Assembly: GCA_902761575.1 (NCBI GenBank)
Contig: CACWKU010000004.1
Span: 1 to 42,963 of the forward strand
Direction of reading: 5' to 3'
Source of the DNA: an uncultured bacterium
Lineage (GTDB): Bacteria; Verrucomicrobiota; Kiritimatiellia; RFP12; UBA3636
Length of the DNA stretch: 42,963 bases
Under the pieces are notes generated by a model that did not search any database, was not told the origin of the DNA, and saw only the letters and a list, made by a program, of their open reading frames with translations. Position numbers and translations under genes: made by a program. This document shows, piece after piece, positions 6,391 through 41,766 of the stretch (position 1 is its first letter; each line of letters opens with the position of its first letter).

Positions 6391-6464
6391 CCGCTTCGCT
6401 CCGGCCCCGCGCCGCTTCGCTCCGGCCCCGCGCCGCTTCGCTCCGGCCCCGCGCCGCTTCGCGC
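6391..6464. repeat. 21-nt tandem repeat, three full copies and a partial
   Basis: Identical units start at 6391, 6412 and 6433, with an 11-base partial at 6454. Each begins CCGCTTCGCTCCGG. The unit CTTCGCTCCGG recurs near 18257-18267. Confidence 0.9.
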
Positions 6465-6485
6465 CGCCGTGGCGCGATCGGATCG

Positions 6486-6596
6486 AGGACGACAAGGCGA
6501 CGGGACGACAAGACGACAGGAAAACGCCCCCGGGGATCCTTCGGGACGAATGGGGCGATTTCTCGTCGTCCCGTCAGCTCGTCGTCCCGTCGTCCA
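6486..6596. repeat. Fold-back array of GACGACAAG-type units
   Basis: Direct units of the GGACGACAAG kind (6486-6520) are mirrored by CGTCGTCCCGT units (6562-6596), giving a long imperfect hairpin with about 40 bases between arms. No gene is supported in 6337-6785. Confidence 0.75.
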
Positions 6597-6761
6597 TGAT
6601 CGTCATTTTCCCGAGCTTAGGGCTACGAACCCGGCGTGTGGAATTCGGATTGCTTTTCGTCCGCCCGCCGTCCCCCGGATGACGGAATCTACCGGCTTCG
6701 ACCGATCGGTACGCGGAGTCCCGCCGCGGAGCGGCCCTAAGAAAACGCCCCGCGAGAATCG

Positions 6762-9641: not shown

Positions 9642-9686
9642 CCATCGGCCATCCCGTCATCCTTGCCCCTACTCCGCAGCCGATTC

Positions 9687-9755
9687 CACCGTGTGTGATT
9701 TTCAGCGCTTTTTCCGCTTCTGGAGATGATAATCGTGCAAGTTTTACACACGGTG
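9687..9755. repeat. 10-bp inverted repeat around an AT-richer core
   Basis: CACCGTGTGT (9687-9696) is mirrored by ACACACGGTG (9746-9755). The 49-base interior is AT-richer than its surroundings. It could be a terminal-inverted-repeat remnant or a regulator site; it begins 46 bases after the secreted-protein stop. Confidence 0.45.
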
Positions 9756-9797
9756 CGATTGCCTTTGTGCCGCCGCCGTGGCGGGATTGAGTTTCTT

Positions 9798-9864
9798 CGA
9801 CTTGGCGACCTGCCGACCCGTCGACTTGGGCCAAGTCGGCAAGTCGCCGAGTCGTCAAGTCGCC
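9798..9864. repeat. Octamer fold-back array, four plus four units
   Basis: Four CGACNNGN octamers (from 9798, 9806, 9814 and 9822) are followed by GCC and then four reverse-orientation octamers of the AAGTCGGC type (from 9833, 9841, 9849 and 9857). It is the clearest example here of a tandem array that flips strand in the middle. Confidence 0.9.
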
Positions 9865-9867
9865 CCT

Positions 9868-9896
9868 GCCGTGGCGGGGTGCGGACCCCGCCACGG
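9868..9896. repeat. GC palindrome, third copy of a REP-like element
   Basis: The 12-bp stem CCGTGGCGGGGT / ACCCCGCCACGG around GCGG or GCG is shared with 12601-12629 and 14217-14244. Here only the palindrome core is present, without the following 30 bases that the other two copies share. Confidence 0.85.
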
Positions 9897-10087: not shown

Positions 10088-10801
10088 ATGCCCACGCCGC
10101 CACGATCCTATTCCGCCGCCGCCGCGGAGAAGCTCCGCCTCGCGCTCCTCGCCCTCGCCGCGTCGGCGACCGTCGTCGCGTCCGCCCAGGACACCGACAC
10201 CGATGCAGATTTCGACGACCCGGATGTCCTCGGCGAAATCCCCGAGGACATCGAAACGGGCGGCGATTACGGCGACATCGCCTGCCCGAAGAAGGGATGC
10301 AAGTCCGAAGACTGCTGGTGCGACGACGATTGCGTCGAGGGAAAGCCCTGTACCGCCTGCGACACGCAGAGTGGCGACGGGAAGGAGAAAACTCACGCAG
10401 AGAACGCAGAGGGCGCAGAGTCTCAATCTCACGCAGAGAACGCAGAGGGCGCGGAGGCCAAAACTCACGAAGAGAACGCAGAGAGCGCGGAGGCCAAAAC
10501 TCACGCGGAGAGCGCAGAGGGCGCGGAGTCGGGAGAGGGTTCGGGGGAGGCGGAGTCTTCCCCGTCCGTTGCTCCCGCCGCCGCCACGAACGCCGTTCAG
10601 GAGCTTGCCCGCGCGATGTCCGAGAAGTCTGGCTATCCGGTTTCCGCGGACCTCGTTGTCACCGCCGCCAAGCGATTGAACCAAGACCCGGAGGAATACG
10701 CGAAGAAGACGCTTGAGGAGATCGGCGGCGCCGCCGCCTCCACCAACGCGCCCTCGTCCGCTCCGTCCGACCGAATCCTGGTTCTCGGTCGGCGGCGCTA
10801 G
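10088..10801 (+). CDS. Secreted acidic Cys-rich protein with 12-residue repeats
   Basis: The 237-residue product has a signal peptide (MPTPPRSYSAAAAEKLRLAL then LALAASATVVASAQ). A very acidic stretch follows, then a compact cluster of seven cysteines near residues 67-95 (ACPKKGC, CWC, DDDC, KPC, TAC). Next come four 12-residue repeats encoded by the CGCAGAG nonamer family (KTHAENAEGAES type, residues about 101-148), and a helical C-terminus. ATG 10088 is preferred over ATG 10064 because AAAGG precedes it and the downstream paralogous signal peptide starts identically. Function unknown. The Cys cluster could bind metal, form disulfides or be a substrate of the radical SAM enzyme 610 bases downstream; that last idea is speculative. 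Confidence 0.7.
   Translation: MPTPPRSYSAAAAEKLRLALLALAASATVVASAQDTDTDADFDDPDVLGEIPEDIETGGDYGDIACPKKGCKSEDCWCDDDCVEGKPCTACDTQSGDGKEKTHAENAEGAESQSHAENAEGAEAKTHEENAESAEAKTHAESAEGAESGEGSGEAESSPSVAPAAATNAVQELARAMSEKSGYPVSADLVVTAAKRLNQDPEEYAKKTLEEIGGAAASTNAPSSAPSDRILVLGRRR
10388..10531 (+). repeat. 36-nt tandem repeat, four copies, in frame
   Basis: Units start at 10388, 10424, 10460 and 10496; each is built of three or four 9-nt CGCAGAG-type subunits, so the 12-residue peptide keeps phase. A partial copy of the 43-bp element follows at 10537-10555. Confidence 0.95.
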
Positions 10802-10854: not shown

Positions 10855-11346
10855 ATGCCAACGCCTCCACAATCCTATTCCGCCGCCGCCGCGGAAAAGC
10901 TCCGCCTCGCCCTCCTCGCCCTCGCCGCGACCGCGGTGGCGGGGTGCACGTCCCATCACGAACCGCCGTCGTCCTCCGAAAGAACGGCCGGCGTCATCGT
11001 GTGCCTCCCCCGCGAAACCGAGGTCGCGCCGGCCGTCCCTTCCCGCACGCGCCCGACGAAGGCGGGCGAATACATCGTCTACGACGTCGAGCCCGGCGAC
11101 ACGCTTTCGGACATCGCGCGCCGATACGGCGTTTCGGTCAAGTCCCTCAAGGAACTCAACAACCTCTCCGAACCGGACCGCCTCCGCGTGAAACAATCGC
11201 TCTTCATCCCGATGGAGAAGGATTCCTCCGCCACCAACGCCGCGCCGCGCGAAGCCGGTTCCGTGCCCGAGGCTTTAACCTCGGGTCCCGCCCCCATCAT
11301 CCTCCCCGTTTTTCGGACCAGTGGCCGCCTTCTGCCCGAACCCTAA
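10855..11346 (+). CDS. LysM-domain lipoprotein
   Basis: The 163-residue product opens with a signal peptide nearly identical to that of the gene upstream (MPTPPQSYSAAAAEKLRLAL) but ends in a lipobox AVAGC (Cys about residue 31), so it should be lipid-anchored. A single LysM module spans about residues 75-122 (YDVEPGDTLSDIARRYGV, LKELNNLSE, LFIPME) and would bind peptidoglycan glycans. A low-complexity tail follows. The start at ATG 10855 lacks a strong ribosome site. Probably an envelope tethering or cell-wall protein; no enzymatic domain is seen. Confidence 0.82.
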   Translation: MPTPPQSYSAAAAEKLRLALLALAATAVAGCTSHHEPPSSSERTAGVIVCLPRETEVAPAVPSRTRPTKAGEYIVYDVEPGDTLSDIARRYGVSVKSLKELNNLSEPDRLRVKQSLFIPMEKDSSATNAAPREAGSVPEALTSGPAPIILPVFRTSGRLLPEP

Positions 11347-18245: not shown

Positions 18246-18361
18246 GCGTTGAAGCTTCGCTTCGCTCCGGCTTTTCAGATTCTGTAAAACCATGCTCTCC
18301 GCTGGCGCGGATTGTGTCGCGGCGCAGTGCCGAAACGCGGAAAAACCACGAATACACTGTC

Positions 18362-18377
18362 TGGCACGGGCGATGCT
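18362..18377 (+). promoter_or_regulatory. Candidate sigma-54 promoter of carA
   Basis: TGGCACGGGCGATGCT again keeps TGGCACG and the -12 GC. The predicted start (about 18388) is only two bases before the chosen ATG 18390, so the message would be leaderless or the site may be decoy. Confidence 0.45.
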
Positions 18378-18389
18378 TCCATTCATTGT

Positions 18390-19691
18390 ATGAACTACGA
18401 GGAAAAATGGCAGGCGGAGCGCGAGCGCGCGGGGTTCCTCGTGCTGGCGGACGGCGCGGTGTTCCGCGGCGTCGCGTTCGGCGCGCGGGAGGACCGGCTC
18501 GGCGAGGCGGTCTTCAACACCGGGATGTCCGGCTATCAGGAGATCGCCACGGACCCCTCCTACGCCGGGCAGATCGTCGCCCTCACCACCGCCGAGGTCG
18601 GCAACTACGGGACGAACCCCGACGACGCCGAGTCGCGCGGGCTCTTCCTCTCCGGGCTCGTCGTGAACGAGCTCGCGGAGCCGTCCAACTTCCGCTCGAC
18701 CCTTCCGCTCGACCGGCTCCTCGCCGACGCGGGCGTGCCGGGGCTTCGCGCCCTCGACACGCGGAGCCTCACGCTTCACCTCCGCGACCATGGCTCGCAG
18801 AAGGCGTATTTGCATGCCTCGAACGAGCCGCTTGACCCTGCGGAGGCGGTCGAGCGTGCCCGTGCGTGGGAAGGCCTCGACGGACAGGACTACGCCGCGC
18901 GCGTCTCCTGCAAAGTCGCGTACGACTTCGCATCTGACCTTCGGGGCGAGGTTGAAAGTGTAAAGGGTAAAGGGAAAAGTGGCGGGCAGGACGAAACTTT
19001 ACCCTTTACCCTTTCAACTTTAAACTCGACCGCGACGAGCGGCGCGGAGCGTCCGCTCGTCGCGGTCTACGACTTCGGCGTAAAGCGCAACATCCTGCGG
19101 TCGCTCGCGTCGTTCGCGCGGGTGCGGGTCGTGCCGGCGAAGACGCCCGCGGAGGAGGTCCTCGCGCTCAAGCCCGCCGGCGTCTTCCTCTCCAACGGCC
19201 CCGCCGACCCCGCCGCGCTGCCCTACGCGATCGAGAACATCCGGAAGATCCTCGGACTTATCCCGTGCGATGACTCGCTCGTCACTCGTCACTCGTCACT
19301 CGTCACTCCCATGACGGGCGGCCCCCGGCCGCCCGTCATGGGCATCTGCCTCGGCCACCAGCTGCTCGCCCTCGCCTGCGGCGCGAAGACGGGGCGGCTC
19401 GCGTTCGGGCACCACGGGTGCAACCATCCGGTGAAGGAGCTGGCGACGGGCAAGGTGCAGATCACCTCGCAGAACCACAACTTCGCGGTCCTCGCGGACT
19501 CCCTCCCGCCGGAGCTCGAGGTCACGCACGTCAACCTCAACGACGGCACCATCGAGGGCCTCCGCCACAAAACCCTCCCGGCCTTCTCCGTCCAGTACCA
19601 CCCCGAGGCCTGCCCCGGCCCGCACGACGCCGCCCCGCTCTTCGACCGCTTTCGCGTCCTCCTCGCCTCGCGCGCTCCCGCCGCCCGCTAA
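18390..19691 (+). CDS. carA: Carbamoyl-phosphate synthase small subunit
   Basis: The 433-residue glutaminase subunit supplies ammonia to CarB for carbamoyl phosphate, feeding pyrimidines and arginine. The N-terminal domain has [19 protein letters not shown] near residues 45-63; the amidotransferase nucleophile is Cys320 in MGICLGHQ, with [12 protein letters not shown] near the end. It is about 50 residues longer than the E. coli protein (382), and two in-frame repeat blocks account for most of that: one near residues 188-213 and one near 297-318, the latter ending directly at the active-site strand. ATG 18390 is the first good start before the conserved [12 protein letters not shown]. It is followed by carB after a 58-base gap made of repeat. 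Confidence 0.95.
18953..19027. repeat. Heptamer fold-back inside carA
   Basis: GTAAAGG-type units (18953-18983) are mirrored by CCCTTTA units (18998-19027). The last 17 bases recur exactly at 19724-19740 before carB. Confidence 0.9.
19279..19342. repeat. Heptamers plus perfect palindrome inside carA
   Basis: Four TCGTCAC units (19279-19306) are followed by a perfect 15-bp stem with a 5-base loop (19308-19322 with 19328-19342). The codons continue without break into the active-site motif. Confidence 0.93.
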
Positions 19692-19749: not shown

Positions 19750-22986
<3,237 letters not shown>

Positions 22987-30832: not shown

Positions 30833-30835
30833 GGG

Positions 30836-30911
30836 AGTGACGAGTGACGAGTGACGAGTGACGCCGAAGGCCCATTCAGCATTCAGCATTCAGCATTCAG
30901 CATTCAGCATT
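30836..30911 (-). repeat. Two heptamer arrays: AGTGACG x4 and ATTCAGC x5
   Basis: AGTGACG units run 30836-30863 (the reverse of TCGTCAC-type arrays in pyrG and carA). ATTCAGC units run from 30874 to about 30911. The second array extends into lpxI and supplies its stop codon. Confidence 0.95.
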
Positions 30912-39420: not shown

Positions 39421-41766
39421 TCACAGCAGGCCGACGGCGTCGACGTCGATCGCGACGCCGACGCCCTCCGGCGGCGGGAGCGCCGCCGCGGCGGCGCGGA
39501 GGCGCCCGTCGAGGACGCGCGGCGAGGCGCCGCGAAGCGTGATCTGGAAGCGCCACACGCCCTTCGCCTTCTCGATCGGCGCCGGGCAGGCGTCGCCGAG
39601 GACGTAGTCGCCCGACTTCCCCACGGCCGCCGCGAAGCGCTCGGCGTAGGACGCCGTCGCGTCGCGGTCGCGCCCGCGGAAGGTCACGCAGTCGAAGTGC
39701 GTGAAGGGCGGATAGCCCAGCTCGCGCCGGTCGGCGAGCTCCTCCTCGGCGAAGCCCTCGTAGTCCTCGGTGCGCGCGTGCACGATGGCCGGATGCTCCG
39801 GCGAGAGCGTCTGCACGATGACGTCGCCGGGCTTGGCGCCGCGCCCGGCGCGCCCCGCCATCTGCGCGATGAGCTGGAAGGTGCGCTCGCCCGCGCGGAA
39901 GTCCGGGAGCGAGAGGCCCGAGTCGGCGTTCAGGATCCCCGCGAGCGTGACGTTCGGGAAGTCGAGGCCCTTGGCGATCATCTGCGTGCCGACGAGGATG
40001 TCGGTCCGCCCCGCCCGGAAGCGGGCGAGGATCTCCTCGTGCGACGCCTTGCGCGTGGTGACGTCGAGGTCCATCCGCTCGATGCGCGCGGAGGGGAACA
40101 TCTTCCGCGCGATCGCCTCGACGCGCTGCGTGCCGATCCCCGCGAAGCGGTAGCCGGGGGCGCCGCACGCGGGGCAGGCCTGCGGCACGGGCCGCCACGC
40201 GCCGCAGACGTGGCAGCGCAGGACGCCGTCGTCGATGTGGTACGTCATCCCGACGGAGCACTCGTCGCACGTCTCGGCGTGGCCGCACGCCGGGCACTGC
40301 ACGGTCGGAGCGTAGCCGCGGCGGTTGAGGAAGAGCATCGTCTGCTCGCCGTTCTCAAGCCGGTCGCGGATCGCGGCGGCGAGCGTCTCGGAGAAGACGG
40401 GGAGCCTGCCGCCGCTCTTCGCGACCTCGCCGCGCATGTCGACGACGGCGACCTTCGGCAGCCGCGCCTCGCCGCTCGCGCGGCGCGCCATCGTCGCGAG
40501 CTCGTACTTGCCTTCGGTCGCGTTGCGCCAGCTCTCGAGCGAGGGCGTGGCGGAGCCGAGCACGACGGCGCAGCGCTCGATCCTCGCGCGCACGACGGCG
40601 ACGTCGCGCGCGTGGTAGCGCGGGGCCTCGTCCTGCTTGTAGCTCGGCTCGTGCTCCTCGTCCACGACGACGAGCCCGAGGTCCCTCACCGGCGCGAAGA
40701 GCGCGGAGCGCGGGCCGATGGCGACGCGCGCCTCGCCCGCGAGGATGCGGTGCCACTCGTCGTGCCGCTCGCCGTCGGAGAGGCGGCTGTGCAGCACCGC
40801 GACGATGCCGCCGAAGCGCCCGACGAACCGCTGGATCGTCTGCGGCGTGAGCGCGATCTCCGGCACGAGGACGATCGCTCCCCTGCCCTTCTCCAGCGCC
40901 GCCGCGATGGCCTGCAGGTAGACCTCGGTCTTGCCGCTCGCGGTGACGCCGCGCAGGAGGATCGGCTTCGGCGCGGGGGCGCCGGCGGGCGCGTCGATCG
41001 CCGCGCGGATCCTCGCGAGGGCGTCCGTCTGCTCGGGCGTGAGCGGCAGCGGCTTCGTCGGCAGGATGCGCCGGCCCGCGAGCGGATCGCGCCGCACGAC
41101 GCGCTCCTCGATCGCGACGAGGCCGTCCGCCTCCATCCGCCGCAGGGTCTCGGGCGCGACGCGCCACGTGCGGCAGAACCCCGCGAGGCTCTCCTCGCCG
41201 CCCGCCAGGCGCTCGAGGATCTCGCGCTGCCGCGCCGTCGGCTCCGCGCGCGGCGCGCGGACGGCGGCCGGCTTCGGCAACTTCGCCTTCCGGCCGAAGT
41301 CGAAGGTCGCCTGCGCGGGTTCGGCGGTCGTCGCACGGTCCGACGGTGTGACCGTCCGACCGTTCGACCGTTCGACCGTTCGGCCGTCGTCCGCGCCGAC
41401 GGCGCGGACGACGAGACGCCGCTCGAAGCCGTCCTCGCCGGCCGCGCCCGCGCGGACGGCGGGCGGGAGCATCGTGCGGATGCAGCGCTCGACCGGGGCG
41501 AGATAGTAGGCGGCCATCCAGCGCGCGAGCTCGACGAGCGGGGGCGGCAGCGCGGGCGCGCCGGGCGCGAGGCCGGCGAGCTCGCGGAGCGGGCCGCCGT
41601 GGGAGGAGCGGGAGGAGAGCGACAGCACCACGCCGGAGATCGTGCGCCGGCCGAGCGGCGCGAGGACGGTCGCGCCCGGCGCGACGGCTCCCTCGAGCGA
41701 CGCGGGGACCGCGTAGTCGAAGACGCGACCCGCCGCGCCTTCCGCCGCCACCTGCGCCACGACCAT
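39421..41766 (-). CDS. priA: Primosomal protein N' (replication restart helicase)
   Basis: The 781-residue helicase reloads the replisome at stalled forks. It shows the N-terminal DNA-binding domain, Walker A GVTASGKTEVYL near residue 278, VVVDEEHEPSYKQ (DEEH box), and the zinc-binding Cys pairs CPACGHAETCDEC and CHVC...CPACG near 500-540, followed by helicase motifs TQMIAKGLDFPNV and QMAGRAGRG. An octamer repeat is inserted in frame near residues 126-144 (DDGRTVERSNGRTV), between the N-terminal domain and the winged-helix region. It follows the kinase gene by 18 bases, probably cotranscribed. Confidence 0.95.
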   Translation of the reverse strand: MVVAQVAAEGAAGRVFDYAVPASLEGAVAPGATVLAPLGRRTISGVVLSLSSRSSHGGPLRELAGLAPGAPALPPPLVELARWMAAYYLAPVERCIRTMLPPAVRAGAAGEDGFERRLVVRAVGADDGRTVERSNGRTVTPSDRATTAEPAQATFDFGRKAKLPKPAAVRAPRAEPTARQREILERLAGGEESLAGFCRTWRVAPETLRRMEADGLVAIEERVVRRDPLAGRRILPTKPLPLTPEQTDALARIRAAIDAPAGAPAPKPILLRGVTASGKTEVYLQAIAAALEKGRGAIVLVPEIALTPQTIQRFVGRFGGIVAVLHSRLSDGERHDEWHRILAGEARVAIGPRSALFAPVRDLGLVVVDEEHEPSYKQDEAPRYHARDVAVVRARIERCAVVLGSATPSLESWRNATEGKYELATMARRASGEARLPKVAVVDMRGEVAKSGGRLPVFSETLAAAIRDRLENGEQTMLFLNRRGYAPTVQCPACGHAETCDECSVGMTYHIDDGVLRCHVCGAWRPVPQACPACGAPGYRFAGIGTQRVEAIARKMFPSARIERMDLDVTTRKASHEEILARFRAGRTDILVGTQMIAKGLDFPNVTLAGILNADSGLSLPDFRAGERTFQLIAQMAGRAGRGAKPGDVIVQTLSPEHPAIVHARTEDYEGFAEEELADRRELGYPPFTHFDCVTFRGRDRDATASYAERFAAAVGKSGDYVLGDACPAPIEKAKGVWRFQITLRGASPRVLDGRLRAAAAALPPPEGVGVAIDVDAVGLL
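41336..41391. repeat. Octamer array inside priA, with strand flip
   Basis: Seven 8-nt units: two of CGGTCCGA type, then CCGTCCGA, CCGTTCGA twice, and two variants. The flip of orientation after two units is the same architecture as at 9798-9864. Confidence 0.9.

Follow-up and report, generated by a model that had tools for sequence, protein, structure and literature searches.

Strand-reversing short-repeat arrays in a Kiritimatiellia genome: probable REPIN-like inverted doublets of dispersed short-period modules

Described repeat systems and the present arrays

Simple repeats of heptamers are usually kept apart from REP-type hairpins, with slippage invoked for the former and transposition for the latter. 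Here, arrays with the appearance of slippage products were found to be fixed-length, multicopy, doublet-forming modules whose families replace each other at identical sites in essential enzymes. Rickettsia palindromic elements, which are selfish palindromes located in frame within coding genes at tolerant positions of conserved genes, are longer and have arms that are not of short period. REPINs are REP doublets that form hairpins (Bertels and Rainey 2011, PMC3116915). The GGGAATC heptamers of Xanthomonas and Nostoc prefer four units (28 bp) (Rehm et al. 2015, PMC4692102) and form 70-75 convergent inverted pairs per Xanthomonas genome; they represent one G-rich word, are read via G-quadruplexes and are under-represented in coding regions (PMC4692102). 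TAACTGA heptamers, known from Beggiatoaceae, Cyanobacteria and Bacteroidetes, are almost only direct and mostly precede start codons (MacGregor 2015, PMC4679880). No literature linking Lentisphaerae or Kiritimatiellae to repeats of such kind was found.

The window, i.e. the whole stretch of 42,963 nucleotides that was analysed, is contig C4 of G000, a genome of 3.4 Mb in 304 contigs, and relatives of this genome are given G numbers. The nearest named relative of its CarB is a Lentisphaeria MAG (62% identical), while CarB identity to G000 is 96% in G008 and 95% in G010 (close congeners) and 88% in G002; G006 and G009 are ~94% identical to G000 across shared DNA.

With a probability of roughly 0.65, we regard the arrays as REPIN-like inverted doublets of a dispersed short-period module that has spread by copying. 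As with REPINs, inverted doublets and singlets of a short conserved sequence occur, the spacer being less conserved than the arms; they form a hairpin in single strands, are dispersed and multicopy, and constitute lineage-specific families in genomes in which RAYT-like genes are present. Unlike in REPINs, the arms are tandem 7-9-mers without a short palindrome per arm, the arrays reside in coding linkers (in frame in CarA, CarB and PriA) rather than in extragenic DNA, and they cluster locally with no RAYT gene beside them. Since RAYT linkage, palindromic arms and extragenic location were all tested and did not hold, we class the arrays as a variant resembling REPINs, not as REPINs proper; the presence of several families in coding linkers, unlike extragenic REPs, counts against even this reading. 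The direct-then-inverted layout is shared with the Xanthomonas GGGAATC repeats, and at 18951, at 21305 and in G010 the units are likewise of 7 nt, about four in number and convergent. The Xanthomonas heptamers differ, however, from the 8-nt units of the lead element described below, and from the arrays at large in that many words, coding linkers and site-level replacement are involved here; on reading the sequences for G-quadruplex potential, CGACNNGN and ACAGGATTN proved to be without G-tracts. As with the TAACTGA heptamers, short heptamer arrays are scattered over distant lineages. In-frame insertion at tolerant sites of protein genes, which was tested and found here, is shared with the Rickettsia palindromic elements, unlike which several word families occupy one site.

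The lead element and its family

The first-pass annotation had described four octamers followed by four reverse complements at 9798, and this is exact in the sequence. The relevant features are:

9798..9829, + strand: lead element, left arm made of four CGACNNGN octamers (direct reading; family of ~9 copies in G000)
9831..9862, - strand: lead element, right arm made of four octamers in reverse complement past the 1-bp centre
9653..9828, no strand: segment missing in G008 and G009, comprising the left arm and upstream DNA

Read directly, positions 9798-9862 consist of CGACTTGG CGACCTGC CGACCCGT CGACTTGG, a single G, and CCAAGTCG GCAAGTCG CCGAGTCG TCAAGTCG, i.e. exactly four CGACNNGN octamers, one base and four reverse-complement octamers. 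The element is intergenic. A search of the genome with the 67-bp lead element returned 12 matches at ~9 places in G000, and the CGACNNGN core pattern was present in G000, G002, G006, G008, G009 and G010 (6/59 genomes, all of the window's genus) and in none of the remaining relatives among the 59 searched. In 13 of the 14 distinct copies, both arms can be recognised as 4x8 units. Every copy has CGACTTGG as its innermost unit, since this was the search core, and most also agree in the outermost unit. Within the unit, the core positions CGAC..G are fixed in nearly all units of the 14 copies, while positions 5, 6 and 8 vary. Orthologous copies are stable, that at G000:C41 being identical to that at G008:C82 and those of G010, G006 and G008 nearly so. 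The earlier contention that the arrays reflect a common process rather than descent of one element is not supported in view of this fixed 4+4 form, its recurrence in G000 and its further copies in five congeners.

At the lead locus of G008 and G009, 176 bp including the left arm are gone and the right arm remains as a solo arm. The segment is bounded at both ends by 5-bp GGCCA repeats, one of which sits at the hairpin centre. They are the only candidate for a target-site duplication such as a MITE would leave at an empty site, and are best read as marking a putative deletion in G008/G009; we infer the direction of change to have been loss.

Carriage of the lead element by a phage or plasmid was rejected, as no phage or plasmid match to it was found, and so was an assembly artefact, since genomes assembled separately share identical orthologous copies. 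Rfam covariance models run over the window matched only two tRNAs, and the arrays correspond to no known structured RNA. A second, GC-rich hairpin (CCGTGGCGGGG TGCGGA CCCCGCCACGG, 9868-9895) adjoins the lead element and also several other copies of the CGACNNGN family.

Module form, folding and the other arrays

The remaining features of the window are as follows:

6486..6521, + strand: left arm of the GACGACAA/GACGACGG element, intergenic, after the ammonium transporter gene
6564..6595, - strand: right arm of the GACGACAA/GACGACGG element
18312..19691, + strand: carA, carbamoyl-phosphate synthase small subunit, host to two in-frame arrays
18951..18980, + strand: left arm of the carA-linker element, GTTGAAAGTGTAAAGGGTAAAGGGAAAAGT
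18996..19025, - strand: right arm of the carA-linker element, ACTTTACCCTTTACCCTTTCAACTTTAAAC
19278..19308, + strand: CTCGTCA heptamers in carA
19750..22986, + strand: carB, large subunit, host to the arrays 21046-21087 and 21305-21377
21046..21087, + strand: TTCGAAGG octamers in carB (same in G008; AACCACC octamers instead in G010 and G002)
21305..21336, + strand: left arm of the carB hairpin, GRGACNN heptamers
21344..21376, - strand: right arm of the carB hairpin
41336..41391, no strand: GACCGTNN octamers, ~2 inverted then 5 direct, located where a linker joins the 3'BD and DEAD domains of PriA

The same layout had been proposed for four sites besides 9798. Single-stranded DNA folding was compared with 200 dinucleotide shuffles per array, none of which (0/200 in each case) folded as well as 9790-9872 (z -3.9), 6480-6602 (z -4.0), 18945-19035 (z -6.1) or 21300-21382 (z -3.4), while 41330-41395 folded no better than its shuffles (z -0.4, 59/200 as good). 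The secondary-structure check thus bears out the layout at 6486, 18951 and 21305 but not at 41336, where the array is mostly direct with ~2 inverted units at one end. The orthologue of the latter in G008 is 16 bp (two octamers) longer and includes a mirrored copy of GTGTGACC.

Arrays and hairpins were counted in a 443-kb sample of G000, taken in stretches; as a strict hairpin scan overlooked degenerate arrays, the criteria were relaxed and Markov-shuffled controls added. Nine hairpins with both arms periodic were detected, as opposed to none in three Markov-shuffled copies; five of period 8 and one of period 7 are true arrays, the rest being GC-rich. Neighbours at up to 120 bp were inverted for 11 (0.63 expected) and direct for two (0.58 expected) of the 48 non-palindromic 7/8-mer arrays of the sample. 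The excess of inverted over direct neighbours, upon which the first-pass annotation had staked its reading, is therefore present in this sample, although only certain families contribute: it is confined to some, namely CGACNNGN, AAAGGGT, GACGACAA and GACCGTNN, while the CTCGTCA, CGAACNNN, TTCAACC and CGCAGAG families form direct-only arrays. The layout is not confined to the window's order, since heptamer doublets of other words are carried by the Betaproteobacteria controls Accumulibacter (L057:5966-6136, GACAGAG) and Ferrigenium (L081:3919-3993 and 11013-11083, GAAGGGA doublets with near-identical arms and different loops).

The unit sequences are indeed unrelated between sites, yet each has further occurrences, either in the same genome or in congeners. 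Relatives of the 6486 element occur in G008 and G010, one of these relatives being periodic in both arms, and the carB hairpin at 21305 has one full relative (G000:C230:649-723). The CarA array at 18951-19025 belongs to the AAAGGGT family, which in G000 comprises many solo arms of 30-33 bp (97-100% identity, differing flanks) and at least six full doublets; 30-bp solo arms identical or near-identical to 18996..19025 are present at many other sites. All AAAGGGT doublets (7/7) are of the same polarity, with GTTGAAA... on the left and ...TTTCAAC on the right. Descent had been denied for these arrays as well; the existence of full-length relatives in G000 or congeners instead argues that each word represents a repeat family spread by copying and not a local product of slippage.

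Whether the word has 7, 8 or 9 nt, arms measure ~27-33 bp, modules being made up of 4x8, 3x9 or ~4.5x7 bp. In G039, a genome of another family, ~31 ACAGGATTN arrays have arms of nearly always exactly three 9-mers and occur solo or as convergent pairs; all strict pairs (7/7) are convergent, and the opposite polarity was sought among these arrays and not found. Judging by a handful of families, what is conserved thus seems to be module length and not word or copy number. Two G039 doublets have identical arms and unrelated 13-nt loops, a misfit with whole-element transposition.

Arms compared in mirror register resemble each other less within a CGACNNGN copy (0.757) than between copies (0.779; P for lower 0.006, 14 copies), the arm mismatches falling at unit positions 5, 6 and 8. 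Similarly, own arms score 0.862 in G039 versus 0.917 for arms of different copies (P ~0.001; n=7); both samples are small. These differences speak against recent fold-back copying and are compatible either with an inherited doublet whose two arms are distinct or with selection that disfavours perfect palindromes.

Retained arrays mostly differ from their orthologues by 0-10% substitutions, while the units within most retained octamer arrays differ from each other by 10-22%; since fresh slippage would yield identical units, the unit variants do not stem from it. Only CTCGTCA and CATTCAG arrays are near-perfect, and these, together with the CGAACNNN direct arrays, look like ordinary slippage-prone repeats and not fixed modules. 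Copy-number changes comprise whole units (14, 16 and 36 bp), which show slippage.

Perfect GAGTGAC and CATTCAG heptamer arrays lie side by side at the end of lpxI (30835-30911), with 14- and 13-bp gaps relative to G008. At 10388-10528, ACGCAGAG 9-mers occur in an array of 36-bp period with a 36-bp indel relative to G006 and G008, and 3.6 near-perfect copies of CCGCTTCGCTCCGGCCCCGCG (6391-6466) lie just before the 6486 element.

Turnover at fixed sites and the origin of the arrays

The coding arrays that were examined all keep the frame and lie at linkers or termini, the internal linkers being those of CarA, CarB, CTP synthase and PriA. The CarB linker before KVLVLG carries doublets of GGGACGA in G000, AATGCAC in G010, ACAGGATTN in G039, GCAATCGA in G032 and GGCAACATT in G020/G023, i.e. 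five unrelated words in six genomes, with both arms always of one word; CTAG-containing repeats are found there in G008 and G029, and TTTCAACC direct arrays in G001/G003/G007. The left half matches its own right half and not other words (exact permutation P 0.003, six genomes; P 0.008 without G023, five distinct words), and the flanks in the closest pair (G000 versus G010) are ~95-97% identical. In the CarA linker, GTTGAAAAG.../...CTTTCAACC arms in four congeners stand against GTAAAGG/CCTTTAC arms in G000. The expectation that both arms change together between strains is thus borne out in CarB and by the joint swapping of the CarA linker arms. Turnover likewise affects the first CarB site and the second CarA site (19278..19308), where G010 has AATGCAC and CATTCAG, G008 has AACCACC, G001/G003/G007 have TTTCAACC and G029 has nothing. 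As homologous sites offer natural before and after alleles, the entry, pairing and exit of repeats are testable by strain comparison.

The first-pass annotation envisaged that slippage expands a local seed and that the polymerase switches template at a hairpin, one arm being copied from the other and the word being incidental. Such a model accommodates the inverted excess among arrays, the word shared by both arms at each site and their joint change, the whole-unit indels, the rare variant that the G008 allele of 41336 carries in mirrored form (GTGTGACC/GGTCACAC), and the inverted host-flank copies that accompany arrays in G000 CarA and G001/G007 CarB. As the generator of the arrays it is nevertheless unlikely, being opposed by the fixed arm length, the polarity fixed per family, the copy number fixed at 4 or 3, the presence of the same words at distant loci, own arms less alike than those of different copies, and unit variants that are too divergent for fresh slippage and would have been present at birth. 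Slippage and template switching would be at most a secondary editor of arrays. The notion of a single process behind a shared architecture holds to the extent that the layout recurs with unrelated units above chance, although each unit is a family with its own descent.

Selection offers two further explanations. Were the modules functional sites, bound as DNA or RNA by a protein with 7-9 nt periodicity and changing their word together with that protein, the fixed module length would be expected, as would the invariant CGAC..G core across 14 copies with variation and arm mismatches limited to positions 5, 6 and 8; furthermore, TAACTGA heptamers have been proposed to be sites of a post-transcriptional regulator (PMC4679880). 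The many unrelated words per genome and even per gene, locations that include the internal linkers of CarA, CarB, CTP synthase and PriA, and presence or absence at the same site between strains make this distinctly improbable. That the arrays are merely tolerated as low-complexity linker coding, selected at the protein level, would agree with the in-frame position of the coding arrays at linkers or termini; it is hardly credible given that the lead and 6486 elements are intergenic, that neither period, 7 or 8, is divisible by three, and that 30-bp AAAGGGT solo arms are DNA-identical at unrelated loci.

Under the preferred reading of REPIN-like doublets, a strand-reversing array would be an inverted doublet of one dispersed repeat module of ~27-33 bp, itself of short period, in which two modules of the same family converge around a short, mostly unrelated loop to give an imperfect hairpin. 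Solo modules, which are common, could arise when one arm is lost. Each family would have spread through copying, its module or doublet acting as a REPIN-like element that is non-autonomous and probably passes through a single-stranded hairpin intermediate, and later slippage would add or remove whole units. Protein linkers and intergenic gaps would be the sites at which insertions survive, so that one site may be recolonised by different families. A more tentative and rather doubtful extension is that a dedicated copying system of the window's order writes ~30-bp short-period modules, singly or in convergent pairs, wherever a site is permissive and irrespective of the word; such indifference would give each lineage its own vocabulary and let words swap at the same linker within a few per cent divergence.

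Candidate movers are a RAYT-like HUH transposase and fork-associated template switching. RAYT-like Y1 transposases are encoded, one of them in the G000:C80:2341 region, scoring 51-65 bits to NF047646, under its 80-bit cut-off. REPINs are expected near their RAYT genes; no array of 13 scanned families lay within ~1.5 kb of 15 Y1-transposase hits in G000 and relatives, and RAYT linkage was rejected accordingly. Arrays are locally clustered: a single 88-kb contig contains 10/31 G039 arrays (P 4e-9), G039 has 11 neighbour pairs at most 2.5 kb apart where 0.65 would be expected, and a single 35-kb contig contains 4/8 G010 AATGCAC arrays (P 8e-7). Fork-associated template switching would fit such clustering.

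In carA of the window, a perfect 16-bp inverted repeat (CCCATGACGGGCGGCC-ccc-GGCCGCCCGTCATGGG, 19308-19342) contains, in reverse, a copy of the host coding sequence for PVMGI that is absent in G010 and G008 and looks like fold-back copying. At the carB site of G001 and G007 (L013, L016), a reverse host-flank copy (GGATCATGATGCG...CGCATCATGATCC) lies beside the TTTCAACC array. Both inverted host-flank copies and the 41336 alleles look like fold-back copying; as a general origin, fold-back copying of host flanks was rejected, with two independent cases among 21 site alleles tested. Additionally, the carA linkers of G010 (L156) and G002 (L168) contain tandem 24-mers (CATTTGCCGCGAAGCGGCACCCGT / CATTTGCGCCGCAGGCGCACCCGT) in frame, each unit of which is a small hairpin.
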